A stretch of DNA of 64,000 bases, from the NCBI GenBank assembly GCA_900469615.1, contig UBYA01000002.1, positions 1-64,000 of the forward strand, read 5' to 3'. Below are positions 16,500-42,981 of the stretch, in pieces (position 1 is the first letter of the stretch; each line of letters starts with the position of its first letter). The notes under the pieces were generated by a model. That model was not told the origin of the DNA. It saw nothing but the letters and a program-made list of their open reading frames with translations, and did no database searches. The position numbers were made by a program, and so were the translations under genes. The DNA comes from Hyphomicrobiales bacterium. Its GTDB lineage: Bacteria; Pseudomonadota; Alphaproteobacteria; Rhizobiales; Rhizobiaceae.

Positions 16500-16563
16500 G
16501 TCGACATTTTTACGATAATATGCGCTTGACCAAAGGGTATTTCGACATATTGTCGACAATATG
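16500..16563. promoter_or_regulatory. GTCGAC-centred operator pair for the GntR regulator
   Basis: A perfect 18-bp palindrome, CATATTGTCGACAATATG, spans 16546-16563, and a second TTTTGTCGACATTTT site is centred 52 bp upstream at 16500-16505, about five helical turns away. Both sit in the short divergent region between the GntR gene and the MFS permease. The strong palindrome ends 18 bp before the permease start codon, so binding there would block transcription. Confidence 0.65.
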
Positions 16564-16581
16564 TTGGGAGGAACGAAGTTC

Positions 16582-21171: not shown

Positions 21172-21933
21172 GGTTTCCTGCGATCGCATTTGCCAAATGT
21201 GTCCGAACTCATCATCGCTGTTCGTGGTGAAATTCCCGCAGATGGTCTAAAGACCCTGGTCATGCTATTGCACGTAGAAAGCTATCCTATACCGATCCGC
21301 TTTCAGCCCTTACAAGTCATCTGCGGGCTGAGCTTACCCTCAAAAGGCATTGAATACGATTGCCGGGAGTTGCATGCGGAATAGAATTCAAACACGTTTT
21401 ACGCCTTTCTAGTTTTCCGACAGTCTGACCAAAACCTGCTACCCCAGCGGAGCTGACTTCTCTAATTCGCCCCTATCGGTCAAGCATTGGCAGCGCTCGG
21501 GCATTTTACGGCTGCCGTATGGCTGGGGTAGGTTAGCCACTCACGTCATGATTGGAAGCAACCGTCAGGAATTCGGCGGGGTGAAGACGTTGCGGGCCGC
21601 GAGGCCAAGCCGTTGCGAATATTCGAGCTGGCGCAGCTCGCCGGCAAGTGAAATCGAGACGTTCGAATCCTTCGCGCGAATTGACCGCAAGGATTTCAAA
21701 TCCGCCTTGAAATCGGCGATCGGGAGTTTCGCCGCTGCAAGCCATGCAGTTGTTGGAAGCAGTGAACGTGCCAGTTGGAATGCATGTAAAAACAGCATGT
21801 CGCGTTTGGTGATAAAGCGGGAAATGGACACCTTGTTCGAACCTTTCGGGACAAGATGTCGGATGAACAAGTGGAAAAAAGATCAGATTCTCGGTGATGA
21901 TCGAGGGAATAAGGCCAATCGAGGTGCCCATTT
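21172..21933. other. Gene-poor stretch of about 760 bp
   Basis: Lower GC than the flanks. A minus-strand frame of 101 codons at 21565-21870 and one of 111 codons at 21696-22031 overlap each other, lack ribosome sites and match nothing I know. No repeat, RNA gene or promoter could be supported. Confidence 0.4.
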
Positions 21934-22932
21934 TTATGGTGGCGTAGCTGGAAACAGATAGTTGCCGAACCGCTTCCTGCGAGCACTTTCGAACTGTTCG
22001 AGCGTTTGCGGTTTGACAAACAAAGCGACAACCTCCGGATGCGCGGCGCGGACCTTCTCCTCGATCGTGGCTACGCATTCTTCGATCTGCTCCGTCAATA
22101 GGGTAGGATCGAATTCAATACTAAGCGCGACCATCGCCTGATCGGGAGCGAGCTGTGCTGTCAGTACGCTGTTTGCATGCACCACGCCATGTTGTTCCTG
22201 AGCAATGTTGCAAATAGCCTCGACCAGAGCGGGGGTTGCGCGTTCCCCTATGAGCAGGCTTTTGCTCTCGGCCGCCAAAAGGATTGCCGTTATCGCCAGA
22301 ACAATGCCGATCAGGATCGAGGCTACTCCGTCCAGCACCGGCATTTGAAGCTTCTTGGCTGTGGCAATTCCGATCATGGCAATCGCAATGCCCATCAAGG
22401 CGGCACTGTCTTCGAACAACACCATGAATGCGGGCGGATCCTTGCTTTGGCGGAATGCTTTCCAGAAATTCAGGCTGCCACGCGCCTTTGCGAAAGCCCG
22501 CCAGCCGACAACCCAGGACGCGCTCTCGAACATGAATGAAAGAATCAGAACGATATAGCTGATCCGCGCATATTCGACTGGTTGCGGAGCCAGCACATGC
22601 CGTATGCCTTGGTAGACCGAAACGCCGGCGCCAAGCGCAAACAGCAGCAAGGCGACAATGAAACTCCAGAAGTATAATTCACGGCCGAAACCAAAGGGAT
22701 GGATGACATCCGGCTTTCGAACGGCACGATGATACCCATAAAGAATAAGTGTTTCGTTGCCGCAGTCGACGACGGAGTGCACAGCCTCACTGAACATTGC
22801 GGCGCTGCCGGTGATGACAGCTGCAGCGAGCTTCGTTACTGCGACGGCGACGTTGCCGGCCAATGCTGCATAGACGGCCGTTCGAGCGGAATGCCGTCCC
22901 TGGATGCGCGGATCGGAAATTGCTGTGGACAC
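21934..22932 (-). CDS. Cation diffusion facilitator family transporter
   Basis: 332-residue inner-membrane CDF protein with about six helices. Metal-site motifs are SAAMFSEAVHSVVDCGNETLIL in helix 2 and LFEDSAALMGIAIAMIG in helix 5; the family-typical HPFGFGRELYFWSF lies in the first loop. A cytoplasmic C-terminal domain runs from about residue 215. Most likely exports Zn, Mn or Fe. The start is GTG 22932, close behind AGGAGG. It lies 58 bp downstream of the small gene at 22991-23185 and could be read from that gene's sigma-54 promoter. Confidence 0.88.
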   Translation of the reverse strand: MSTAISDPRIQGRHSARTAVYAALAGNVAVAVTKLAAAVITGSAAMFSEAVHSVVDCGNETLILYGYHRAVRKPDVIHPFGFGRELYFWSFIVALLLFALGAGVSVYQGIRHVLAPQPVEYARISYIVLILSFMFESASWVVGWRAFAKARGSLNFWKAFRQSKDPPAFMVLFEDSAALMGIAIAMIGIATAKKLQMPVLDGVASILIGIVLAITAILLAAESKSLLIGERATPALVEAICNIAQEQHGVVHANSVLTAQLAPDQAMVALSIEFDPTLLTEQIEECVATIEEKVRAAHPEVVALFVKPQTLEQFESARRKRFGNYLFPATPP

Positions 22933-22990
22933 CGCCGCCTCCTATAAAAAAGTCGACGCCGGCAAAATCACATCAACTGATCGAATGGCA

Positions 22991-23185
22991 TTAGTCCATG
23001 TCACGGAATGCATGTCCGGCCGTGGCCACTCCCTCGATAACACTCGGTGGCAGGAGGTCCGCTGCGTCGGTGCCGTCAAAAATCCACTCCTTTGGATCGG
23101 CAAAATCTGGAAGGCTTGCTCCGGCACGCACGTAGAGACCGATGGCGGGCTTTTTTTCGTTGACGTAAAGATCATATTCTTGCAC
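22991..23185 (-). CDS. Small protein of unknown function, sigma-54 regulon member
   Basis: 64-residue protein (VQEYDLYVNEKKPAIGLYVR..., ending GHAFRDMD). GTG 23185 is chosen because AAGGAGGAGGAGA precedes it by 4 nt; the frame extends to an ATG at 23224 that lies upstream of this ribosome site. No known domain, signal or membrane segment. It is preceded by a -24/-12 promoter at 23302-23316 and two activator dyads, which argues it is a genuine gene and part of the stress regulon. Function unknown. Confidence 0.7.
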   Translation of the reverse strand: MQEYDLYVNEKKPAIGLYVRAGASLPDFADPKEWIFDGTDAADLLPPSVIEGVATAGHAFRDMD

Positions 23186-23301
23186 GGGATCTCCTCCTCC
23201 TTTGCAACCCAATTCAAAACTCATGCAGATCCGCTGCCGACACGGATCTTGTCATGCTAAAGGCTGGCGTCGTCCAGCTTGATCGTTGCAACGACATTGA
23301 A

Positions 23302-23403
23302 GCAACGGCCGTGCCAGTTCCAAAAGACCAGCGTAATCAATTGGCTGCTGCTATGAGGCATTTGACTCGCGACATTATGTCGATGGTTCCGGACAAGATG
23401 TCC
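23302..23403 (-). promoter_or_regulatory. Sigma-54 promoter with two activator dyads, minus strand
   Basis: Read on the minus strand, TGGCACGGCCGTTGC (23316 to 23302) matches the -24/-12 consensus with GG and GC correctly spaced. Upstream lie CGACATTATGTCG (23370-23382) and GGACAAGATGTCC (23391-23403), centred 60 and 81 bp from the -24 element. It drives the small gene at 22991-23185 and possibly the CDF transporter. Confidence 0.82.
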
Positions 23404-23596
23404 AAGCTTGGGAGCATGCTTGTAGCATTCATTCGTGCCTGTCCGGAGTATCGGGTCGGAAACGGATTCCTTTTCCAATTCAAGATATGCATGGTATATT
23501 CGCCGCGATTGCTAGGCGTTGCTACAGGCCCAATGGAAGCAACCGCATATCTGCCAGTTTTGTCAGCGCCACTCCTGAAAAGTCAGGGGTGGCGCC

Positions 23597-23700
23597 GGAC
23601 ATTTTGTCCGACCGGCGCGGGACATCCTGTCTGAGAAATTCGACAAATCGCCTCTAAACTATTGATATTCATGACTATCAGAAACTGGCACGACTGTTGC
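23597..23700 (+). promoter_or_regulatory. Sigma-54 promoter with two activator dyads, dnaK operon
   Basis: TGGCACGACTGTTGC (23686-23700) is a near-perfect -24/-12 promoter. GGACATTTTGTCC (23597-23609) and GGACATCCTGTCT (23620-23632) are centred 83 and 60 bp upstream of it. The predicted leader to the dnaK start is about 170 nt. Since the NtrC-type regulator and its kinase lie in the same operon, this would be an autoregulatory promoter. Confidence 0.87.
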
Positions 23701-23883: not shown

Positions 23884-25782
23884 GTGAGTAAAGTTATCGG
23901 AATCGATCTGGGTACGACCAACTCCTGCGTTGCTGTGATAGATGGCAAGAACACGCGAATTATCGAGAACTCGGAAGGTGCGCGAACCACGCCCTCGATC
24001 GTCGCCTTCACCAGCGACGGCGAACGGCTGGTTGGCCAGCCTGCGCGCAGACAAGCCGTCACCAACCCCACCAACACGATCTTCGCCGTGAAGCGTCTCA
24101 TAGGCCGCCGTTACGACGACCCCACGGTCGAAAAAGACAAGGGCCTCGTTCCCTATAAAATCGTCAGGGCGGGCAATGGTGACGCATGGGTCGAAGCGGA
24201 AGGCAAGACCTACTCACCATCCCAGATTTCCGCCTTCATCCTGCAGAAAATGAAGGAAACCGCCGAAGCGAACCTCGGGGAGAAGGTGACGCAGGCCGTC
24301 ATTACGGTTCCCGCCTATTTCAACGACGCCCAGCGCCAGGCAACCAAGGACGCCGGCAAGATCGCGGGGCTTGAGGTCCTGCGTATCATCAACGAGCCGA
24401 CGGCTGCCGCGCTGGCATATGGGCTTGAGAAGAAGAAGCAAGCGAAGATCGCCGTCTACGACCTCGGCGGCGGCACGTTCGACATTTCCATCCTCGATAT
24501 CGGGGACGGCGTCTTCGAGGTGAAGTCGACGAATGGCGATACGTTCCTCGGCGGCGAGGACTTCGACATGCGTCTCGTCGAATATCTCTGCTCGGAGTTC
24601 AAGAAGGAGCAGGGTATCGATCTGAAAACCGACAAGCTCGCACTGCAACGCCTGAAGGAGGCGGCCGAGAAGGCGAAGATCGAGCTTTCGACAACGACGC
24701 AGACCGAAATCAACCTTCCTTTCATCACCGCCGACGCGACGGGGCCGAAGCATCTGCAGGTCAAGATTACGCGCGCCAAGTTCGAATCCCTGGTCGAGGA
24801 TCTGGTGCAGCGGACGATCGAACCCTGCCTCAGCGCCTTGAAGGATGCCGGCCTGACGGCAAAGGAGGTCAGCGAGGTCGTGCTGGTCGGCGGCATGACC
24901 AGAATGCCGAAAATCCAGGAGGTCGTCGAAAAGATCTTCGGCAAGGAGCCTCACAAGGGTGTGAACCCCGATGAAGTTGTTGCCGTAGGCGCTGCGATCC
25001 AGGCGGGCGTGTTGCAGGGCGACGTCAAGGACGTGCTGCTTCTCGACGTCACGCCGCTGTCGCTCGGACTGGAAACGTTGGGCGGCGTCTTTACACGCCT
25101 CATCGAGCGAAACACGACCGTACCCGCGCGCAAGAGCCAGATCTTCTCCACCGCCGAGGACAACCAGAACGCAGTCACGATCCGCGTCTTCCAGGGCGAG
25201 CGTGAACTGGCGGCAGACAACAAGCTGCTCGGCCAGTTCGATCTGATGGGAATTCCTGCGGCACCGCGCGGCACTCCGCAGATCGAGGTCACGTTCGACA
25301 TCGATGCCAACGGTATCGTCAACGTCTCGGCCAAGGATAAGGGAACCGGCAAGGAACAGCGCATCCAGATCCAGGCTTCCGGCGGTCTCTCCGAGGCCGA
25401 TATCGAAAGAATGGTCAAGGATGCCGAAATCCATGCCGGCGAGGACAAGAAGCGAAGGGAAACCATCGAGGCCAAAAACGCCGGCGATGCCCTTATCCAC
25501 GAAACGGAGAAAACTCTGGCCGAGCACGGTGCAAAACTCGCAGATGCCGATCGCCGGGCGATTGAAGATGCCGTGTCGAACCTCCGCGAGGCATTGAAAG
25601 GCAATGATGGCGAGGCGATCGCAGCCAAGGTCAATGCGCTCCAGCAGGCCAGCATGAAACTGGCCGAAGCCGTCTACTCGCAATCTCAACAGTCTGAACC
25701 GGCCTCACCGGCTTCCGGGAATGACGATGTCGTCGATGCGGAATTCACCGAACTCGACGACGATCAGAAGAAAGCGAATTGA
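23884..25782 (+). CDS. dnaK: Hsp70 chaperone DnaK (accessory copy)
   Basis: Full-length DnaK, 632 residues. The ATPase domain has [14 protein letters not shown], the phosphate loop [13 protein letters not shown] and [12 protein letters not shown]; the interdomain linker is [19 protein letters not shown]; the substrate domain and the lid (ending [14 protein letters not shown]) are intact. The start is GTG 23884 with GAGGAG upstream. Being sigma-54 dependent and grouped with a CbpA-type partner rather than a zinc-finger DnaJ and GrpE, it is probably a second, condition-specific copy beside a housekeeping dnaK elsewhere (inference). Confidence 0.95.
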
Positions 25783-26006: not shown

Positions 26007-26909
26007 GTGAAAAATCCCTATGAGGTTCTTGGGGTCAGCCCGACCGCCTCCGCATCGGATATTCAGTCCGCATATCGCAAGCTTGCGAAAAAGCTGCATC
26101 CCGACCTGAACCCCGGCGATAAATCCGCCGAAGACAAGTTCAAGGAGGTTGCCGCCGCCTATGATCTTGTCGGTGATGCAGACAAGCGGAAGCGCTTCGA
26201 TGCCGGCGAGATCGATGAGACCGGTGCGGAGCGACCGCAGCATCACTACTACAGGGATTTCGCGCATTCCGATGGCGGTCACCCCTATATGGACACGTCC
26301 GGCTTTGCGGACTTCATGGATTCCGACGATGCCTTCGCGGAACTGCTCAGGCGCGGTCAGCGCAGCCGGGCAAATCGCCGTGGTGAGGATTTGCATTACA
26401 CGCTTCCCATATCTTTCGTTGAATCGATCACCGGTGCCAATAAGCGCCTGACGCTGCCGGGCGGAGGCACCCTTGACGTCACCATCCCGGCTGGCCTCGT
26501 CGACGGCAAGATCCTTCGTCTCAAAGGCAAGGGGGTTCCCGGTGCGGGAAAGGGCGGGCCTGGCGACGCCCTCATTCAGGTGGAGGTTCTCCCTGATCCG
26601 CGCTTCCAGCGCGACGGTGACAACATATCGATAGAATTGCCGATTTCGCTCAACGAGGCCGTGCTCGGTGGAAAGATACGCGTGCCGACACCCACCGGCG
26701 ATGTGTCCATGTCGATCCCAAAAGGATCGAACACGGGGACAACGCTGCGCCTTCGCGGCAAGGGAGCCCCGCAGCGGAGAGGAGGGCATGGCGACGAATT
26801 CGTCAAGCTCAAGATCGTCTTGCCAAAGCACCCGGACACGGAGCTTGAGACCTTCGTGTCGAACTGGGCGGCTGGACGAGACTTCAACCCACGCGAGGAC
26901 AGGTCATGA
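26007..26909 (+). CDS. cbpA: CbpA-type DnaJ co-chaperone (no zinc finger)
   Basis: 300-residue class II J protein. The J domain (residues 1-70) contains the HPD triad in [13 protein letters not shown] Gly/Asp/His-rich linker follows, then two C-terminal beta-barrel substrate domains (about 130-290). The CxxCxGxG zinc repeats of classical DnaJ are absent, as in CbpA. It lies 225 bp after dnaK and overlaps cbpM by ATGA. It should deliver clients to the DnaK encoded upstream and be held in check by CbpM. Confidence 0.92.
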
Positions 26910-27187
26910 TCATCACGAAGAAGGAGTTTCTCGCTCGGTCGGGTCTCAAGGTGAAGACGCTGGAACTATGGATCGAGCAGGAATGGGTCATCCCGCAGGA
27001 TACGCCGTCGGGACCGGGCTTTTCGGATACCGATGTCGCCCGGGTCCATCTCATTCGCGACCTGACGGAAAAAGTCGGCGCGAACGATGCCGGGGTCGAC
27101 CTCATCCTGCATCTGCTCGACCAGCTACACGGCATGCGGCGTGCCTTCGAGCAGTTGCAATCTCATCTGAAGGATAAGCAGCTCTAA
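26906..27187 (+). CDS. cbpM: Chaperone modulator CbpM
   Basis: 93-residue MerR-like helical protein of the CbpM family ([24 protein letters not shown]..., then a long helix [20 protein letters not shown]). In E. coli, CbpM binds the J domain of CbpA and inhibits it. The ATGA overlap with the dnaJ-like gene indicates tight coupling of co-chaperone and inhibitor. It ends 99 bp before the response regulator. Confidence 0.9.
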
Positions 27188-27286
27188 GGCTTGAGTTGAA
27201 ACTGTTGACAGCATCCCCCAAGCGGGATGCTTTGGTGGCACGGCAATGCGCAATCGTCGGTATGATAGCATCCAGGAGTGGTGGTG

Positions 27287-28678
27287 ATGTCTGAGGAAGA
27301 GTCCAGCGATATATCGGAACGCGTCAGGAACCCCGAATTCGGACCATGGCTCGCTCAAGCGTCGATCCTCGTCGTGGATGACGAACCGGGTATGCGGAAC
27401 TTCCTGCTCAAGACCCTGGGTCCCCGCTGCAAGATTATTGAAGAGGCTGAGAATGCGGCCGAGGCGTCGCGCAAGCTCGACCAGCAGCATTTCGATGTCG
27501 TGATCCTCGACAACATCATGCCGAATATGAACGGTCTCGACTGGCTGGCGGAACAGCGCGCCGCCGGTTTCTTCGCGGATGTCATCCTCATGACCGCCTA
27601 TGCCGATCTCGACACGGCCATAAATGCGGTTCGCGTCGGCGTCGTCGATTTCGTTCTGAAACCTTTCAGGTCGAACCAGTTGTTAAATTCGATTGCCCGT
27701 TGCCTCGATCGCAGCCGGTTGCAGCGCGAGAATGACGTTTTGCGGCATCAATTGAACTTTTCGGCCCATCAGGTCTATCTTCGAAACAATATTATCGGGC
27801 AATCGCCCGCCATCGAGAAAGTGCGGGCGATGATTGCCCGTGTTGCTCCAATATCGACGTCGGTCCTGCTGACCGGACCGTCCGGGACCGGCAAGGAAGT
27901 GGCTGCCCGTTCCATTCACTCTCTTTCAGATCGTGCCGACAAGCTGTTCGTACCGATCAATTGCGGGGCGATCCCGGCCGACATGATCGAGAGCGAACTG
28001 TTCGGCCACCTGAAGGGGGCGTTTACGGGCGCCAACCGCACGCGCGAGGGGTTGTTCCTGCATGCGCAAGGCGGCACGATCTTCCTCGATGAAATCGCCG
28101 AGATGCCCTACCTGCTCCAGAGCAAGCTGCTGCGGGTGTTGGAAGATCGGCGCGTTCGGCCGATTGGCTCGGAGCGTGAGCTTCCGTTCGACGCCAGGTT
28201 CATCTTCGCAACAAATGCCGATCTGGAGAGCCGCGTCGCAGCCGGAACCTTTCGCGCGGACCTCTACTTTCGGATCAATGTCGTCCAGATTCGACTGCCG
28301 CCACTGAAAGACCGCGGCAGCGACGTTTTGGAGCTGGCGGCGCTCTTCATGCGCGAAGTTGCACAGCAGGTCGGTATGCCGGCAGTCGAGATCGATGAAC
28401 ACGTCCGATCCTATCTCTTGCGATATGATTGGCCAGGCAACATAAGGGAGTTGCGAAATTTCATCGAAAGAGCTGTCATCCTCGGAAGCTTTCCCGAGGA
28501 TGCAGAAAACACGCCTTTGGCCCCTGCACGCGCCGATGGGCAGAGCTTGGCGGAAGTCGAAAAGCGTCATATTCTGTCTGTGCTGAGAGAGGTTGACGGC
28601 GATCGTGAGGAAGCCGCGCGACGGCTTGGCATTTCTCGCAAAACGATCGACCGGAAATGTGTAAGCTGGAATGGGTGA
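27287..28678 (+). CDS. NtrC-type sigma-54 response regulator
   Basis: 463-residue enhancer-binding protein. The receiver domain (about 25-140) has acidic DDE at 31-33 and phospho-acceptor Asp75. The AAA+ domain (about 165-400) has Walker A GPSGTGKE, an intact GAFTGA loop (244-249) that contacts sigma-54, and Walker B TIFLDEI. A Fis-type HTH ([17 protein letters not shown]) ends the protein with a very short tail. The ATG at 27287 follows GGAG by 5 nt. It overlaps the kinase gene by 8 bp. It is the only sigma-54 activator in the window and so the prime candidate to bind the GGACA-N3-TGTCC dyads. Confidence 0.93.
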
Positions 28679-30695
28679 GGGAACGAGCGAGATTTCAAAC
28701 CGCAAGGCCTCGGTTCGTTATCGCCTTCTGGCAATCGCACTCGTGCCGATGCTTGTCATCCTGCCCATATTGCTGGGTATCACGATCTATCGCTGGAACG
28801 AGCGCTTCGACGCGCTCGCGATATCCAAGGTCAACGATGACCTGACGATCGCCCATTTTTATATCGACAGAATGCTCGCGGTGACGGAAGAGCGTCTCGC
28901 TGCGGTCAGCCAATCCGCCCGCTTTCGGGATCTTACTGCCGGCGGGCGTGTCGCCAGCAGCGATCTCGATGCCTTCCTGAACAAGACGGCCGATGACCGC
29001 GGCCTGGATTTCCTTTATCTCATCGACGACTCGGGCAAGGTCGTCGCCAGCAGCAGTCCGCTTGCCAGCGCTTCGCCCCGCTGGGACTGGCCCGTCGTCA
29101 AGGCGGCTCTGGACGGCAAGTCATCTGCCGGTTTCGATGTCCTCGACCAGAACGAACTTTCCGCGCTGAGCCCGGAGCTTGCAGAGCGAGCGCGGATTGC
29201 GCTTGTGTCATCGACTGCAGATCCGAATTCCGGTGCTCAACAGGAAAGCAGGGGTCTTGTTCTTCACTCCGCCACCGTGGCGACCTGGGGGAATGGGGAA
29301 CGCGGTGCATTGGTTGCCGGTGTGCTTCTGAACAAGAACGCCTCGTTTATCGATACCATCAACAGATTGATTTACAACGAAGCCAGCCTGCCCGCGGACA
29401 GCCGCGGGACTGCCACCGTCTTCCTGTCGGATGTCCGGATCAGCACCAATGTGGATCTTTTCGAAGGACGGCGCGCGATCGGCACGCGCGTTTCGCCGGA
29501 GGTCGGCGAAGCGGTGCTCAAGTACGGGAAAACCTGGAGAGAGCAGGCCTTCGTCGTCAACGACTGGTACATTTCCGCCTATCAACCGTTGCTGGATACT
29601 TACAATCGCCGCGTCGGGATGCTCTATGTCGGTTTCCTGCAGAAGCCATTTACCGACGCGAAAAGAGAAACGCTGATCGCTATCGTCATCGCCTTCGGCG
29701 TCGCGGTTGCCGCGACCGTACCCTTGTTTCTTGTCTGGGCGAGCAACATCTTCCGACCGCTGGAGCGCATGACCCGGACGATCAGCGCGGTCGAAACCGG
29801 CGACCTCGCAGCGCGCACCGGCCTTCCGAAAATGAGAGACGAAATCGGTCAGGTCGCATCGGAACTGGACCGGCTGCTCGACCAGGTTCAGGAGCGCGAT
29901 GCGGAACTGCGGCTATGGAACACGGAACTCAACCAGCGCGTCGAGGAGAGGGCTCGCGCGCTGCAGACGGCGAACGAGCAGCTCGAGACCACAACCAAGC
30001 AATTGATCATGTCGGAAAAGCTCGCGGCGATCGGTGAAATCACGGCCGGCGTCGCTCATGAGATCAACAATCCCATCGCCGTCATCCAAGGCAATCTCGA
30101 AGTCATTCAGAGCATCGTCGGAGACGAGGCCGAGAAAGCCCGGAGCGAATTCAAGCTGATCGACCAGCAATTGATGCGGATCAGCGAGATGGTCACCAAT
30201 CTCCTCAAATTTTCGAAGCCTCAGGAATATGCCGGGGTTCTGGAGCGATACGATCCTGCCGATGTCATCGGCGACACTCTACCGCTCGTGCGGCACCTTC
30301 TGAAGAAAACCACCATTACGATCGAGCGGGAAAACGATGCATCCCGGCTCATCGCCATGCCCCGCACCGAACTTCAGCAAGTGCTGATCAATCTGATTGT
30401 CAATGCGTTCCATGCCATGCCTCAAGGCGGCAAGCTGACTCTGCGCACATTCGATTCAGAGGCGGATCGAACACCGGGGATAACGATTGAGGTCGCGGAC
30501 ACCGGTAACGGCATGGAACCGGACGTCGTCAGGAGGATTTTCGACGCGTTTTTTACGACCAAGCGCCGCGAGGGTACAGGTCTGGGTCTTTCCATCTGCC
30601 AGATGCTCGTGACGCGGCAGGGTGGCACCATCGCGGTCGCCAGCAAGCCGGGTGAAGGAACGACCTTTACGGTCTGGCTTCCGGAAGCCGCCTGA
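28671..30695 (+). CDS. Membrane histidine kinase with periplasmic sensor domain
   Basis: 674-residue kinase. TM1 is at about 18-40, followed by a large periplasmic sensor of about 290 residues (double-Cache-like, containing FLYLIDDSGKVVASS), TM2 at about 334-358, then HAMP, a coiled coil, HisKA with GVAHEINNP (His463) and HATPase (N-box NLIVNAFHAMP, GTGLGLSICQ). Resembles NtrB/NtrY/DctB-type kinases that phosphorylate NtrC-family regulators. The 8-bp overlap with the response regulator gene marks it as the cognate partner. The signal is unknown, but the Cache-like domain faces the periplasm. Confidence 0.92.
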   Translation: MGEGTSEISNRKASVRYRLLAIALVPMLVILPILLGITIYRWNERFDALAISKVNDDLTIAHFYIDRMLAVTEERLAAVSQSARFRDLTAGGRVASSDLDAFLNKTADDRGLDFLYLIDDSGKVVASSSPLASASPRWDWPVVKAALDGKSSAGFDVLDQNELSALSPELAERARIALVSSTADPNSGAQQESRGLVLHSATVATWGNGERGALVAGVLLNKNASFIDTINRLIYNEASLPADSRGTATVFLSDVRISTNVDLFEGRRAIGTRVSPEVGEAVLKYGKTWREQAFVVNDWYISAYQPLLDTYNRRVGMLYVGFLQKPFTDAKRETLIAIVIAFGVAVAATVPLFLVWASNIFRPLERMTRTISAVETGDLAARTGLPKMRDEIGQVASELDRLLDQVQERDAELRLWNTELNQRVEERARALQTANEQLETTTKQLIMSEKLAAIGEITAGVAHEINNPIAVIQGNLEVIQSIVGDEAEKARSEFKLIDQQLMRISEMVTNLLKFSKPQEYAGVLERYDPADVIGDTLPLVRHLLKKTTITIERENDASRLIAMPRTELQQVLINLIVNAFHAMPQGGKLTLRTFDSEADRTPGITIEVADTGNGMEPDVVRRIFDAFFTTKRREGTGLGLSICQMLVTRQGGTIAVASKPGEGTTFTVWLPEAA

Positions 30696-30709: not shown

Positions 30710-30814
30710 GGACAAATAGTCCTGCCAAGGGACGACAGTTTGTCCGCAACAGTTGCCGTCTGCCGCCGTGAACCGTTGAAAAGGCTTGAAAACAGCAAAT
30801 GGCACGATTGTTGC
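30710..30814 (+). promoter_or_regulatory. Sigma-54 promoter with two activator dyads
   Basis: -24/-12 element TGGCACGATTGTTGC at 30800-30814; dyads GGACAAATAGTCC (30710-30722) and CGACAGTTTGTCC (30733-30745) centred 84 and 61 bp upstream. It begins just 15 bp after the kinase stop and serves the 132-residue protein gene at 30907. Confidence 0.87.
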
Positions 30815-31317: not shown

Positions 31318-31421
31318 AGACAATTTGTCCTGCATGGGCCGACACATTGTCTTTGCCGGCGTTGCGTCAGGCGGACAAGTATCTGATTATAAAAGGTTTT
31401 ATCATCTGGCACGATGGTTGC
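31318..31421 (+). promoter_or_regulatory. Sigma-54 promoter with two activator dyads, clpB operon
   Basis: -24/-12 element TGGCACGATGGTTGC at 31407-31421; dyads AGACAATTTGTCC (31318-31330) and CGACACATTGTCT (31340-31352) centred 83 and 61 bp upstream. It reads into the DUF1269 gene and clpB. Confidence 0.87.
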
Positions 31422-32002: not shown

Positions 32003-32060
32003 CGCTGACTTGTTCCAGCTTGCCTCAGTCGTCCAAACGCCGTTGTAGAAGGTGGCCAAG

Positions 32061-34664
<2,604 letters not shown>

Positions 34665-36146: not shown

Positions 36147-37073
36147 TCATAGCAATATCGAATTGATCGGCACGGGCATTTCGGGGAGGTTTTCCTCTCC
36201 CAGAGCCTCCCTTAAGGTCACTTCGATGGATTTGGCGATCGCTGCAATCGGCAGGTCGTTGGGCATGGTTCCAAATGGCATCTCCAGCTCATCGCCAAGA
36301 GCATCCAGCCCGAAAAACGTGTAGGCGATGATGCCGGCGGCGAGCGGCGTAATCGGTCCAAGCATATTGGCGAGACCGAACGGCAGGAGGAAACAGAAGA
36401 GGTAGGCGGTTCTGTGAAGCAGAAGCGTGTAACCGAATGGAACGGGCGTGTTGCGAAGGCGCTCGCAGCCAGCGATGACTTCATTCATTCCCGAGATCGT
36501 GCGGTCGAGGATGCTGAACTCAATGTCGGTGACGTAGCCCTTGGCTGAAAGCACGGCGAGACATTCTCCCATCAATTGCAGGATATAGTTGGGCGAATTG
36601 GATGCTTTGAGAAGCCTAGCCCTTTCTTCATTCGAGAGCAGGGTTTCGGCATTGTCGCCCAACCGATTTCCGCAGCGCAGATGGCGCACGAGATCCTCGA
36701 CAAGGACGATATTCAGCCGGATCAGCCTTTCACGCTGTTTGGCCGCCTGATCGCCGCTCGGCAGCAAAATGATTGTCTGGCGGGCAAGATCGCGGCTGTA
36801 TGCGAGAAGATGGCCCCAGAGCCTACGTCCCTCCCACCAGCGATCGTAGCAGGCGTTGTTTCGAAACCCGAGAAAAATGGAGAGCGTCAGGCCGATCAGA
36901 TAAAACGGCGCGCCGTCGACCAGCGGAACGAGCGTCGGATGTCGCGTGTGCGCCCATACGACGATGGCCGACATGAACATAACGATCAGGACGCGAGGAT
37001 AGATGCGTCTGATCACCGATCCGCGAACCTCAAGGAAGAGACGGAGCAGGTTCGGAGTTTCCCGGACGATCAT
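36147..37073 (-). CDS. Bestrophin-like (RFP-TM) chloride channel family protein
   Basis: 308-residue membrane protein of the bestrophin/UPF0187 family: RRIYPRVLIVMFMSAIVVW (helix 1), ERLxxL-type cytosolic helices, the family motif FRNNACYDRWWEGRRLWG, and a second membrane pair ending LGDELEMPFGTMPNDLP. The ATG at 37073 follows AGGTG. A sigma-54 promoter on the minus strand lies about 110 bp upstream. Bacterial bestrophins conduct anions or cations; here it could balance charge or osmotic stress. Confidence 0.87.
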   Translation of the reverse strand: MIVRETPNLLRLFLEVRGSVIRRIYPRVLIVMFMSAIVVWAHTRHPTLVPLVDGAPFYLIGLTLSIFLGFRNNACYDRWWEGRRLWGHLLAYSRDLARQTIILLPSGDQAAKQRERLIRLNIVLVEDLVRHLRCGNRLGDNAETLLSNEERARLLKASNSPNYILQLMGECLAVLSAKGYVTDIEFSILDRTISGMNEVIAGCERLRNTPVPFGYTLLLHRTAYLFCFLLPFGLANMLGPITPLAAGIIAYTFFGLDALGDELEMPFGTMPNDLPIAAIAKSIEVTLREALGEENLPEMPVPINSILL

Positions 37074-37182: not shown

Positions 37183-37285
37183 GCAAGAACCGTACCATTT
37201 CGCGCGGACAGCATTGTCAAAGGGTTAGCAGGGCGAGGCTGCCGCCAGATGGACAAACTGTCCGTCGACATAGGACAAATTGTCC
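37183..37285 (-). promoter_or_regulatory. Sigma-54 promoter with two activator dyads, bestrophin gene
   Basis: On the minus strand TGGTACGGTTCTTGC (37197 to 37183) keeps the essential GG and GC but has T for C at the fourth base. Dyads GGACAAACTGTCC (37251-37263) and GGACAAATTGTCC (37273-37285) are centred 60 and 82 bp upstream; these are the best dyads in the window. The plus-strand YdeP-like gene has no -24/-12 element at the matching distance. Confidence 0.8.
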
Positions 37286-37347
37286 ATGGAAAACAATAGG
37301 ATAACGTGCTCTACTGACGATAGTAACATGCGTGCGGAGTGCGGTTT

Positions 37348-39615
37348 ATGGATGACAGGAAAGCGCAGTATAAGACCTATCATCATCCGGCTGGCGGATG
37401 GGGAGCCGCGGCCGCGACAGCAAAGGTGCTGCTGGAGCAAAGTGTCGTGACCAAAGGGTCGCGAGCGCTCCTTGCCATGAACCAGCCTGGCGGTTTCAAA
37501 TGTCCAAGCTGCGCCTTCCCGGATGCCGATTGCAAGAAGACGCTCGAATTCTGCGAGAACGGTGCCAAGGCGCTGGCGCATGAGGCGACGAAATTCCGGG
37601 TCACACGGGAATTCTTCGCCAAGCACACCGTCTCCGAGCTCATGGAGCAGTCGGACTATTGGCTGGAGATGCAGGGCCGTTTGACGGAGCCGATGCGCTA
37701 CGACGCGGCGACGGACAAATATGTGCCCTGCGACTGGGACACCGCCTTCGCAACGATTGGCAAACATCTGAGATCGCTTGAGAGCCCGCATCAGGCCGAA
37801 TTTTACACCTCCGGGCGCACACCGAACGAGGCAGCTTTCCTCTACGCCATCTTTATCCGAGCCTTCGGCACCAACAATTTCCCCGATTGTTCCAACATGT
37901 GCCATGAGCCGACAAGCCGTGGCCTGCCGCCGGCGATCGGCGTCGGGAAGGGCACGGTGATCCTTGAGGATTTCGAACATGCCGAGGCGATCTTCGTCAT
38001 CGGCCAGAATACCGGCACGAACTCGCCGCGCATGATGACGAACCTGGTCGAAGCGCGAAAGCGCGGCGTTCCGATCGTCGCCGTCAATCCCATGCCGGAA
38101 CGTGCGCTGATACGCTTCACCGAACCTCAGGATATGGTCCAGATGGCGACATTCGGCTCCACTCCGATCGCCAGCGAATTCGTCCATATGAAAATCGGCG
38201 GCGACCTTGCTTTCCTGAAAGGTATCATGCGAGTGATGTTCGAGCGCGAGGCCAAGGGCGAAGCGATCCTCGACCATGACTTCATCGCCAAGCACACCGT
38301 TGGTCTCGATGCTATCCGCGATGAGATCATGACCCGTGATTGGCCCGAACTCGTCGAGGCGTCCGGCCTGGATGAAGACCAGATCCGCCGTTGCGCCGAA
38401 ATCTATATTCGTTCGCAAGCAACGATGATCTGCTATGGCATGGGCCTGACCCAGCATCAGGATGGGTCGCGCCTGTTGCAACAGGTTGCAAATCTGTTGC
38501 TGCTGAAGGGCAATTTCGGAAAGCCGGGAGCCGGGATTTCTCCGATCCGTGGACATTCGAACGTTCAGGGCGACCGCACCGTCGGGATCGATGAGAAGCC
38601 GACGCAGGAATATCTCGACCGCGTTCGGGACGTCTTCGGCTTCGAGCCGCCCCGCGAGCATGGCCATCATACGGTCGAATCCGTGGAGGCGATGGAGAAG
38701 GGGACCGCCAAGGTCTTCATCGGCATGGGTGGAAACTTCGTTCGCGCCATCCCCGATACCGAACGATCCTATGCGGCAATGAGCAAGCTCGCGCTTACCG
38801 TCGGGATTGCCACCAAGCTCAACCGCGGCCACCTCGTTCACGGCAGGGAGGCGCTGATCCTTCCGGTGATCGCCAGGTCGGAATGGATACGTACGTCCGC
38901 CGGCGAACAGTTCGTAACGATCGAGGACTCCATGTCGAATGTCACGGCCTCGCGTGGCGTGCTGACGCCGGCCGGTGAGCATCTGAAGCCGGAGGTGGAG
39001 ATCGTATGCCGAATGGCAATGGCGACGCTTCCCGACAGCAAGATCCCATGGGAAGCCTATATCCACGATTACAATCTGATCCGTGACAAGATCGCAGCCG
39101 TCTATCCGGAAATTTACACGGACTTCAACGAAAAGATCAAAAACCCCAGGGGCTTCCACCTGGACGTTCCGCCGCGCCGGCTTGTCTGGCCCACGCCGAA
39201 CGGCAAGGCGAATTTTCTTCTGCTGCCCGGCTTGGAAGTGAACGCACCGGTCGCGGACCCTGCCATGCTGAGGCTCGCGACAGTGCGCTCGCACGATCAG
39301 TTCAACACGACCATCTACAGCTACAATGATCGCTATCGCGGCGTCTACAATGACCGCATGGTCCTGTTCATGAACGAGGACGATCGAAAGCAGCGCAATC
39401 TCGGCGTGGGCGCACGCATCTGCCTGGAGACGATCACCGAGGACGGCGTTCAGCGTCGGGTCGAGGGCCTTACGGTGCTGGATTACCCGATGCCGCGCGG
39501 CTCGGTTGCCGGATATTACCCGGAACTCAACCCGCTGCTTCCGCTCGAATATTACGACAGGATCAGCGGCACTCCGGCGGCGAAGTCCATCCCGGTCAGG
39601 GTAATCGCGGCGTAG
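37348..39615 (+). CDS. YdeP/FdhF-like molybdopterin oxidoreductase
   Basis: 755-residue member of the molybdopterin-guanine-dinucleotide family, in the subgroup of E. coli YdeP (linked there to acid resistance) rather than true formate dehydrogenase. An N-terminal cysteine cluster (KCPSCAFPDADC, Cys52/55/62) may hold an Fe-S cluster. Cofactor-binding segments include FYTSGRTPNEAAF, GQNTGTNSPRM and GNFGKPGAGISPIRGHSNVQGDR. No Tat signal, so cytosolic. ATG 37348 has GGAG 8 nt upstream; GTG 37339 is less likely. The electron donor and substrate are unknown. It is divergent from the bestrophin gene. Confidence 0.88.
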   Translation: MDDRKAQYKTYHHPAGGWGAAAATAKVLLEQSVVTKGSRALLAMNQPGGFKCPSCAFPDADCKKTLEFCENGAKALAHEATKFRVTREFFAKHTVSELMEQSDYWLEMQGRLTEPMRYDAATDKYVPCDWDTAFATIGKHLRSLESPHQAEFYTSGRTPNEAAFLYAIFIRAFGTNNFPDCSNMCHEPTSRGLPPAIGVGKGTVILEDFEHAEAIFVIGQNTGTNSPRMMTNLVEARKRGVPIVAVNPMPERALIRFTEPQDMVQMATFGSTPIASEFVHMKIGGDLAFLKGIMRVMFEREAKGEAILDHDFIAKHTVGLDAIRDEIMTRDWPELVEASGLDEDQIRRCAEIYIRSQATMICYGMGLTQHQDGSRLLQQVANLLLLKGNFGKPGAGISPIRGHSNVQGDRTVGIDEKPTQEYLDRVRDVFGFEPPREHGHHTVESVEAMEKGTAKVFIGMGGNFVRAIPDTERSYAAMSKLALTVGIATKLNRGHLVHGREALILPVIARSEWIRTSAGEQFVTIEDSMSNVTASRGVLTPAGEHLKPEVEIVCRMAMATLPDSKIPWEAYIHDYNLIRDKIAAVYPEIYTDFNEKIKNPRGFHLDVPPRRLVWPTPNGKANFLLLPGLEVNAPVADPAMLRLATVRSHDQFNTTIYSYNDRYRGVYNDRMVLFMNEDDRKQRNLGVGARICLETITEDGVQRRVEGLTVLDYPMPRGSVAGYYPELNPLLPLEYYDRISGTPAAKSIPVRVIAA

Positions 39616-39663
39616 AAAGCACCGGGAGCGGTCACTTTCGAACCGATTTTCCCTTATCGTCTC

Positions 39664-39890
39664 GTGCATATGGTCTTCGCAGTCCACCTGACGACGACAT
39701 TTGTCGTTGGCCGTGCCGGAGCACGGCATCTGCTCAGGGACCGTTCCAATCGCGGAGCGCGGAAGATGTTCTCAAGGGCGATGTGGATGGCGGCGATCGT
39801 CACGCCGATCCAGATTTTCGCCGGCGACGCACACATGCCGAGGACGCCTCTCTGATCCTCTTCGGTCTGCCGAACAATGAGGAAGCGCGC
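39664..39890 (+). pseudogene. Fragment of cytochrome bd oxidase subunit I (cydA)
   Basis: The frame at 39664-39840 reads HMVFAVHLTTTFVVGRAG...RDRSNRGARKMFSRAMWMAAIVTPIQIFAGDAH, the helix 5-6 region of CydA with its conserved IxxPxQIxxGDxH motif. A shifted frame then continues DASLILFGLPNNEEAR, also CydA-like. Both ends are missing and a frameshift near 39840 separates the pieces, so it is a dead fragment of about 75 codons. It lies between the YdeP-like gene and the MscS-like gene. Confidence 0.7.
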
Positions 39891-40643: not shown

Positions 40644-40745
40644 GGACATTTTGGCTGCGCGGTCTCGCTAAATTGTCCGGTGCAGGCAGTCCGCGCAATA
40701 TAAACTATTGGTTCTTATCAGCTAATATAATGGCACGCCATTTGC
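40644..40745 (+). promoter_or_regulatory. Sigma-54 promoter with two degenerate activator sites
   Basis: -24/-12 element TGGCACGCCATTTGC at 40731-40745. Upstream are GGACATTTTGGCT (40644-40656), with only the left arm intact, and CGCTAAATTGTCC (40666-40678), with only the right arm intact, centred 81 and 59 bp from -24. The same spacing as the other promoters supports both as real but weaker sites. Confidence 0.75.
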
Positions 40746-40975: not shown

Positions 40976-41179
40976 ATGTCCAAGGATCATGACAGAGCAT
41001 CGCATGGATCACAGGACGCCCGGCGTCATAAGATCGATCATCAAACGCGCGATCAATGGCTTGATCGAGATTCCAGCCTTCAAGCCGCATGGCTTGCCTC
41101 CAGACTGTCGAGAGATGAATTTATCCGACGCAATGAAGGTCTGATCGACAAGGTTATTGCTGAATATCGGAATCGATAG
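40976..41179 (+). CDS. Small charged protein of unknown function, sigma-54 regulon member
   Basis: 67-residue, highly charged, probably helical protein (MSKDHDRASHGSQDARRHKIDHQTRDQWLDRD..., ending IDKVIAEYRNR). No recognised domain. GAGAGG precedes the ATG, which is about 220 nt after the predicted transcription start of the sigma-54 promoter. A hairpin follows the stop. Its hydrophilic composition recalls small stress proteins, but this is only an impression. Confidence 0.65.
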   Translation: MSKDHDRASHGSQDARRHKIDHQTRDQWLDRDSSLQAAWLASRLSRDEFIRRNEGLIDKVIAEYRNR

Positions 41180-42879: not shown

Positions 42880-42981
42880 GGACATTTTGCCCTGAAACTC
42901 GAGACATTTTGTCTGTGAGGACTAACGTTGATCAGGTAACTGTTTGATTTTCTGAACTCGCCGAAATGGCACGAGCGTTGC
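42880..42981 (+). promoter_or_regulatory. Sigma-54 promoter with two activator sites, HAD gene
   Basis: -24/-12 element TGGCACGAGCGTTGC at 42967-42981; GGACATTTTGCCC (42880-42892) and AGACATTTTGTCT (42902-42914) centred 81 and 59 bp upstream. It drives the HAD phosphatase operon. An ATG at 42966 overlaps the -24 element and so cannot be the start codon. Confidence 0.83.

Follow-up and report, generated by a model that had tools for sequence, protein, structure and literature searches.

Does the region between dnaK and the reading frames to its left hold a leftward promoter, and if so what does it drive? A sequence-only reading of the window (the 64-kb stretch of DNA analysed here) had proposed a minus-strand sigma-54 promoter that points away from dnaK to a 64-residue gene, here called p64, with a metal exporter of the CDF superfamily behind it. 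We consider it highly probable, from comparison with related genomes, that the element is a sigma-54 promoter belonging to the two-component system of the same island, and that it would drive p64 and most likely the CDF gene. The sequence-based parts of this account are the composite of core and dyads, its co-occurrence with the regulator, the coding selection on p64 and the conserved gene order.

The composite element

The core and both dyads are all found in the places and orientation first described (Table 1). The proposed minus-strand sigma-54 promoter is borne out by the exact core, by dyads at regular distances and by the frequency of such composites: 8 in the window compared with 0 in 100 dinucleotide-preserving shuffles, where a composite is a core with at most 1 mismatch plus dyads 63-67 and 85-90 bp away that total no more than 3 mismatches. 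A chance origin of the composite is excluded. In the window, the exact dyad GACANNNTGTC is found 12 times (0.65 expected) and the neighbouring spacing GACA-N4-TGTC 3 times (0.73 expected). Across the whole genome, a one-dyad pattern gave 10 matches, some of which represent both dyads of a single promoter (9 in the window, 1 on contig C21), and 0 in a reversed control. The 81 distinct composites have dyads at 63-67 and 84-90 bp in a search that permitted 62-68 and 83-91 bp. A transcript from the leftward promoter is expected, from the position of the core, to start near 23290.

Table 1. Features of the window around the element and the stress island (positions in the window)
Feature	Position	Strand	Details
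Composite without its target	21759-21860	minus	Core 21759-21773
CDF-superfamily cation transporter	21934-22932	minus	GTG start at 22932; 58 bp after p64 stop
p64, 64 residues	22991-23185	minus	GTG start at 23185, stop 22991-22993; single copy in genome
Ribosome binding site AAAGGAGGAGGAGA	23190-23203	minus	Upstream of p64 GTG
Sigma-54 -24/-12 core TGGCACGGCCGTTGC	23302-23316	minus	Exact match to TGGCACG-N4-TTGC, 0 mismatches
IHF-like site AATCAATTGGCTG	23335-23347	plus	Between dyads and core; 1 mismatch to IHF consensus WATCAANNNNTTR
Proximal putative activator dyad GACATTATGTC	23371-23381		65 bp upstream of the core's first base
Distal putative activator dyad GACAAGATGTC	23392-23402		86 bp upstream of the core's first base
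Divergent composite of dnaK	23598-23700	plus	Dyads 23598-23608 and 23621-23631 (65 and 88 bp), core 23686-23700
dnaK	23884-25782	plus	NCBIfam PRK00290 and prok_dnaK above cut-off
DnaJ/CbpA-type co-chaperone	26007-26909	plus	
CbpM-like gene	26906-27187		After DnaJ/CbpA-type gene
NtrC-type sigma-54 response regulator, predicted activator	27278-28678	plus	Receiver, AAA+ with GAFTGA, Fis HTH
Sensor histidine kinase	28671-30695	plus	sCache_3, HAMP, HisKA, HATPase domains
Composite 3' of kinase gene	30711-30814	plus	Core 30800; distal dyad 1 mismatch
Composite 5' of DUF1269 and clpB genes	31319-31421	plus	Core 31407
clpB	32052-34664	plus	TIGR03346, 1400.8 bits (cut-off 1232.1)
Composite of bestrophin-like gene (36147-37073)	37183-37284	minus	Core 1 mismatch
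Composite with degenerate dyads	40645-40745	plus	Core 40731
Composite of HAD-hydrolase-like gene	42881-42981	plus	Core 42967

We read the dyads as GACA-N3-TGTC. The alternative spacing TGTC-N10-GACA, which is that of the GlrR site, is less favoured because the exact N3 form is enriched and N4 much less so, and because the inter-dyad distance varies (20-23 bp in the 81 composites). This preference is not proof, since the composite search itself fixed N3. The IHF-like motif AAN4TTGA stands in 42 of the 81 distinct composites (0.8 in shuffled spacers); the site at 23335-23347 comes close to this motif without matching it fully. A single rpoN gene is present in the genome (PF04552, 1 match above cut-off).

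Conservation is higher in the element than around it. In the three closest relatives, 16 of 17 positions are unchanged at the core (23301-23317), all 13 of 13 at the proximal dyad (23370-23382) and 12 of 13 at the distal dyad (23391-23403), so that dyads and core retain 41/43 bases compared with 117/175 in the remaining upstream region. The divergent layout of dnaK, composite, composite, p64 and CDF gene is kept in the four closest relatives. One strain with this layout, R. multihospitium HAMBI 2975, is a nodule symbiont.

Not every composite in the window has a target. The one with its core at 21773 precedes a DUF308 (HdeD-like) gene and grpE in a relative, L052; both genes are missing in the window, and nucleotide similarity to L052 ends near 21676. 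As this example shows, a composite can outlive its gene and is not by itself proof of activity. Elsewhere in the same genome, on contig C21 (109474-109576), a composite is followed by genes for a 227-residue protein, a DyP peroxidase and a family-1 encapsulin (L040:6484-9489). A 67-residue frame without a Pfam match (40976-41179) is a candidate target of the composite at 40731. Two abutting GACA-N3-TGTC-like dyads (at 16544 and 16555, spanning 16544-16565) precede an MFS gene; they were left out of the composites, having no -24/-12 core at the right distance, and are perhaps the operator of another regulator.

The 64-residue gene

Judged by its substitution pattern, p64 is a real protein-coding gene under strong purifying selection. 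In a scan of GTDB genomes 102 relatives were confirmed, and the best 80 of these 102 are the loci analysed below. Compared with the four closest of these 80, p64 has a dN/dS of 0.029-0.039. The four are Rhizobium rhizogenes 17-2069-2c (L051), Rhizobiales bacterium AFS049917 (L052), R. multihospitium (L106) and Agrobacterium leguminum (L053, near saturation at synonymous sites). All four share the position of the start codon, which is GTG in three and ATG in L053, and the 64-residue gene with a GTG start is thereby upheld. An ATG further upstream (23224, giving 77 residues) was rejected as the start: it is absent from L051 and L106 and out of frame in L052 through a 4-base length difference. 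The strong ribosome site that had been pointed out does precede the GTG; this very strong form is special to the genome itself, and the three closest relatives have AGAGGAGA.

Homologues of p64 occur in records of alpha-, beta- and gammaproteobacteria. Of 297 same-family genomes, 5 have the gene (the genome studied here among them), and 9 of 72,556 plasmid records carry it. Three of these nine plasmid records, one from Bosea and two from Shinella, annotate the homologue as a hypothetical protein with the same start. In the other six, five list no feature at p64 and one is unannotated (gene table incomplete). The suggestion that gene finding would miss or mis-start p64 thus does not hold as a general statement. 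A copy in a Mesorhizobium genome (L004:1501-1653, L098) appears frameshifted near its start.

Thirty-one chosen members of the family have 13 invariant residues, including the motif GHAF near the C-terminal end. No Pfam, NCBIfam or PDB sequence family was found for p64; we attribute weak matches to chance (best E 0.028 in Pfam, from one model and 3/31 members, and 0.12 in PDB). An AlphaFold model has a beta-beta-beta-alpha-beta arrangement (pLDDT 92.9), for which Foldseek gave no structural match at E below 0.001. In a second look at 131 chains, four reached Z of at least 2, the best being YcgL (DUF709; Z 6.1 over 64 residues, rmsd 3.0) and NE1680 (Z 5.2 over 60 residues, rmsd 2.6). Both Z values are within the range of common arrangements, neither protein is among the p64 sequence matches found, and the likeness does not suffice for assigning a fold or function. 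From its sequence distribution, p64 is an unnamed, widely conserved small-protein family.

The regulator and kinase

The island regulator and kinase (27278-30695) are likely the activator system of the composites. The regulator's second-best match within the same genome is 39% identical, and no named NCBIfam model reaches its cut-off for either protein among the best 25 matches listed. Named relatives point to Rhizobiaceae as the family whose genomes were searched. Among these same-family genomes, the exact double-dyad composite is present in 20/294 (0 in a reversed control) and the regulator, at E below 1e-150, in 38 of the 287 searched. All 20 composite-bearing genomes fall within the 38 regulator-bearing ones (Fisher p 1e-20, a value that ignores relatedness and takes the smaller draw of 287 as the whole). 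From this co-occurrence we infer that the regulator binds the dyad. The other 18 of the 38 regulator-bearing genomes lack the exact composite, which weighs against our main reading.

The 20 composite loci from other genomes of the family (L011-L027, L029-L031) differ from the island in what the element precedes. A kinase gene is present in 18, with the composite near its 3' end; the exceptions are L011, where the sequence ends upstream of the element, and L031, which has no kinase gene. An MFS gene of the L-lactate/oxalate-formate type comes next after the element, also in 18 of the 20. The two loci without it both belong to genome G106; in L017 the element stands between the kinase gene and clpB, and L031 has an MscS-like gene. 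The name of the transporter is approximate because the protein of L024 scores 314.1 bits and the cut-off of the L-lactate MFS model is 320. In the genome studied here, a search for a lactate-type MFS transporter had no match, though without a positive control this empty answer shows little. The MFS transporter is probably the ancestral target of the element. Its frequency as the next gene (18 of 20 loci) suggests the recruitment of a carboxylate-type regulator by the stress island. The island also looks accessory in this genome, because, at the cut-offs applied, none of p64, the exact composite and the regulator was found in the 4 same-genus genomes drawn. A minus-strand reading frame at 37225-39729 is probably the antisense shadow of a plus-strand oxidoreductase gene of the FdhF/YdeP family (37339-39615).

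The neighbourhood of p64 in relatives

The best 80 of the 102 p64 loci hold 56 composites, compared with 0 in reversed sequence. A composite lies directly before p64, at 52-118 bp, in 11 of the 80 (the core is perfect in 6 and has a single mismatch in 5). They come from Rhizobium, Agrobacterium, Mesorhizobium, Bradyrhizobium, Frateuria, a MAG and other records. These 11 are among the 21 loci with the kinase, compared with 0 of the 59 without it; a composite anywhere in the locus is found in 20/21 and 2/59, respectively. Since the 80 loci are of unequal length and related, p-values for the kinase association overstate it. In some of the 69 loci without a composite directly upstream, p64 stands in a row of genes behind one.

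Seven further loci (L055, L063, L067, L068, L069, L078, L089) have the composite before p64 and no adjoining CDF gene, so p64 would belong to the predicted regulon widely and the CDF gene only in this lineage. Within the best 80 of 102 loci, a DyP peroxidase gene is within 1.5 kb of p64 in 52, downstream in 26 and upstream in 26; neither DyP nor CDF is beside p64 in 24, and a kinase, ClpB, DnaJ or DnaK match occurs somewhere in 60. One Paraburkholderia locus has p64 adjoining a ClpG-like disaggregase that scores below the cut-off of that model. Because the DyP and encapsulin genes on C21 are behind the same composite, p64 and its usual neighbours would here share one predicted regulon while physically apart. 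Kinase, regulator, composite and p64 occur together in two gammaproteobacterial records, L078 (Frateuria sp. Soil773) and L089 (Gammaproteobacteria MAG), which suggests horizontal spread.

The cation transporter

A CDF gene does follow p64 in the same orientation at the distance that had been noted; the p64-CDF order is kept in the four relatives and the 58-bp gap is identical in three. Its description as a CDF metal exporter stands in part. Membership of the superfamily is clear (TIGR01297, 124.2 bits against a cut-off of 82.35; PF01545, 109.9 against 26.6), and the models of the FieF type give 46.6 of 420 and 32.7 of 447 bits, well short of FieF-type identity. The second transmembrane segment keeps the HxxxD position (HSVVD, compared with DSLVD in FieF). 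In the fifth, LFEDS aligns to HYQSD of FieF in a low-scoring alignment. Since the second metal site thus looks atypical, with no HxxxD in TM5, the exporter label is uncertain.

From the gene order, p64 and the CDF gene are probably co-transcribed. No terminator-like site was found in the gap between them, and one weak one is inside the CDF gene. Folding of the gap is modest (z -1.23) and speaks neither for nor against read-through. In L053, a 124-residue gene (L053:10253-10627) that matches PF09527, a putative F-ATPase-associated Ca2+/Mg2+ transporter, stands between the two, which hints at a cation theme. The CDF gene follows p64 in only 4 of the best 80 of 102 loci; this, with the extra gene in L053, confines the CDF link to one lineage.

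Proposed mechanism

Beyond the sequence elements themselves, the steps we propose are drawn from established knowledge of NtrC-type activators. The Cache-domain kinase would phosphorylate the NtrC-type regulator, which would then bind the paired GACA-N3-TGTC dyads, about two turns apart. A bend in the DNA, possibly made by IHF, would bring the regulator to sigma-54 polymerase at TGGCACG-N4-TTGC, where ATP hydrolysis would open the promoter at 23302-23316. The leftward transcript would encode p64 and most likely run on into the CDF gene. The product of p64 may be a small protein with an accessory role in chaperone and DyP-encapsulin stress operons.

Alternative explanations

That the CDF gene is a separate unit, with p64 in the regulon and termination or processing in the gap between them, is unlikely, yet it is the alternative to which we give most weight. 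The rarity of the pairing favours it, as only 4 of 80 loci have the two genes adjoining and one of these has a gene between; the shared strand, the identical short gap in three relatives, the lack of a terminator-like site there and the lack of a composite of its own upstream of the CDF gene argue for a common transcript. It is improbable that the element is vestigial or only weakly active, with p64 and the CDF gene transcribed mainly from another promoter (heat-shock or housekeeping). Such a view could appeal to the 21773 composite, whose lost target is present in L052, and to the 69 of 80 p64 loci without a direct composite, which imply other promoters or longer transcripts in those loci. 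Against it stand the higher conservation of dyads and core relative to the sequence around them and the restriction of p64-preceding composites to kinase-holding loci; a scan of the minus strand at 21400-23700, confined to sigma-70-like sites, found none.

Very improbable, in our view, is a role of the dyads at 23371-23402 mainly as extra enhancers for the divergent dnaK, with leftward transcription incidental. In its favour are the ability of enhancers to work from afar and the back-to-back arrangement of the two units; however, dnaK has a dyad pair of its own, the leftward pair is kept together with its core in four relatives, and in the seven further loci listed above the composite precedes p64 without dnaK as divergent neighbour. 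As for the 64-residue frame not being a gene, the absence of a Pfam or NCBIfam match is what could be said for it, and we give it practically no credence: the frame has homologues in three proteobacterial classes and a confident predicted fold, and the strong purifying selection on it refutes the idea. We therefore retain the leftward sigma-54 promoter for p64, and most likely the CDF gene, as the preferred reading.

Relation to known systems

The island resembles NtrBC, ZraSR and AtoSC in its regulator (receiver, AAA+ with GAFTGA, Fis HTH), paired dyads, -24/-12 core and IHF-like site. It differs from them in the dyad, GACA-N3-TGTC, and in the predicted targets, which are chaperones, a disaggregase, a peroxidase-encapsulin pair and p64. 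The MFS-linked pair of the same bacterial family shares the regulator and kinase families and the composite near the 3' end of the kinase gene; there the MFS gene is next, whereas here the element recurs before stress genes. As for DyP-encapsulin operons, p64 elsewhere is often near a DyP gene. Here the DyP-encapsulin genes are behind the same composite on another contig, and p64 is outside that operon and precedes the CDF gene. The C-terminus of p64 (GHAFRDMD) is, by eye, unlike the C-terminal peptide of the L006 DyP sequence, which we take to be the encapsulin cargo-loading peptide.

The tLST core is described as dna-hsp20-clpG (PMC8290217). The island is like tLST in its accessory chaperone, disaggregase and envelope genes, as well as in the DUF308 (HdeD-like) gene of L052 and the ClpG-like gene beside p64 in Paraburkholderia. 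It departs from tLST in its disaggregase, which is a ClpB above cut-off (the ClpG model gives 802.9 of 1900), and in its sigma-54-like control; one hsp20 query had no match in the window. A cluster with DnaK, DnaJ, GrpE and GroEL is placed among predicted sigma-54 regulons in general by PMC12316311. The titles and abstract openings of the literature matches listed, which are no proof of absence, contain neither the element nor p64 nor sigma-54 control of such an island. An earlier survey of rhizobial RpoN regulons, reportedly by Dombrecht in 2002, may cover part of this ground. Both the promoter and the regulator are of known types; the target set and the link to the p64 family were not found in those parts of the literature searched.

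Significance

Rhizobial chaperone genes are normally regarded as controlled by RpoH. In this genome, control of a whole accessory chaperone set appears to lie with sigma-54 and a membrane sensor dedicated to it, and the sequence signature is distinct enough for the regulon to be listed in other genomes. A wider reading, which we offer tentatively and would not expect to hold in full, is that the carboxylate sensor of a lactate-like transporter was taken over by a protein-quality-control island. DnaK, ClpB, DyP-encapsulin, p64 and the cation transporter would then be induced through sigma-54 by an external small molecule, not by misfolded protein, and p64 would be a new small part, perhaps linking chaperones to the peroxidase compartment as an adaptor. 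The locus would offer a case of a two-component system seemingly re-used for a new regulon, and the p64 family would be assigned to a regulon and to partners that can be tested.
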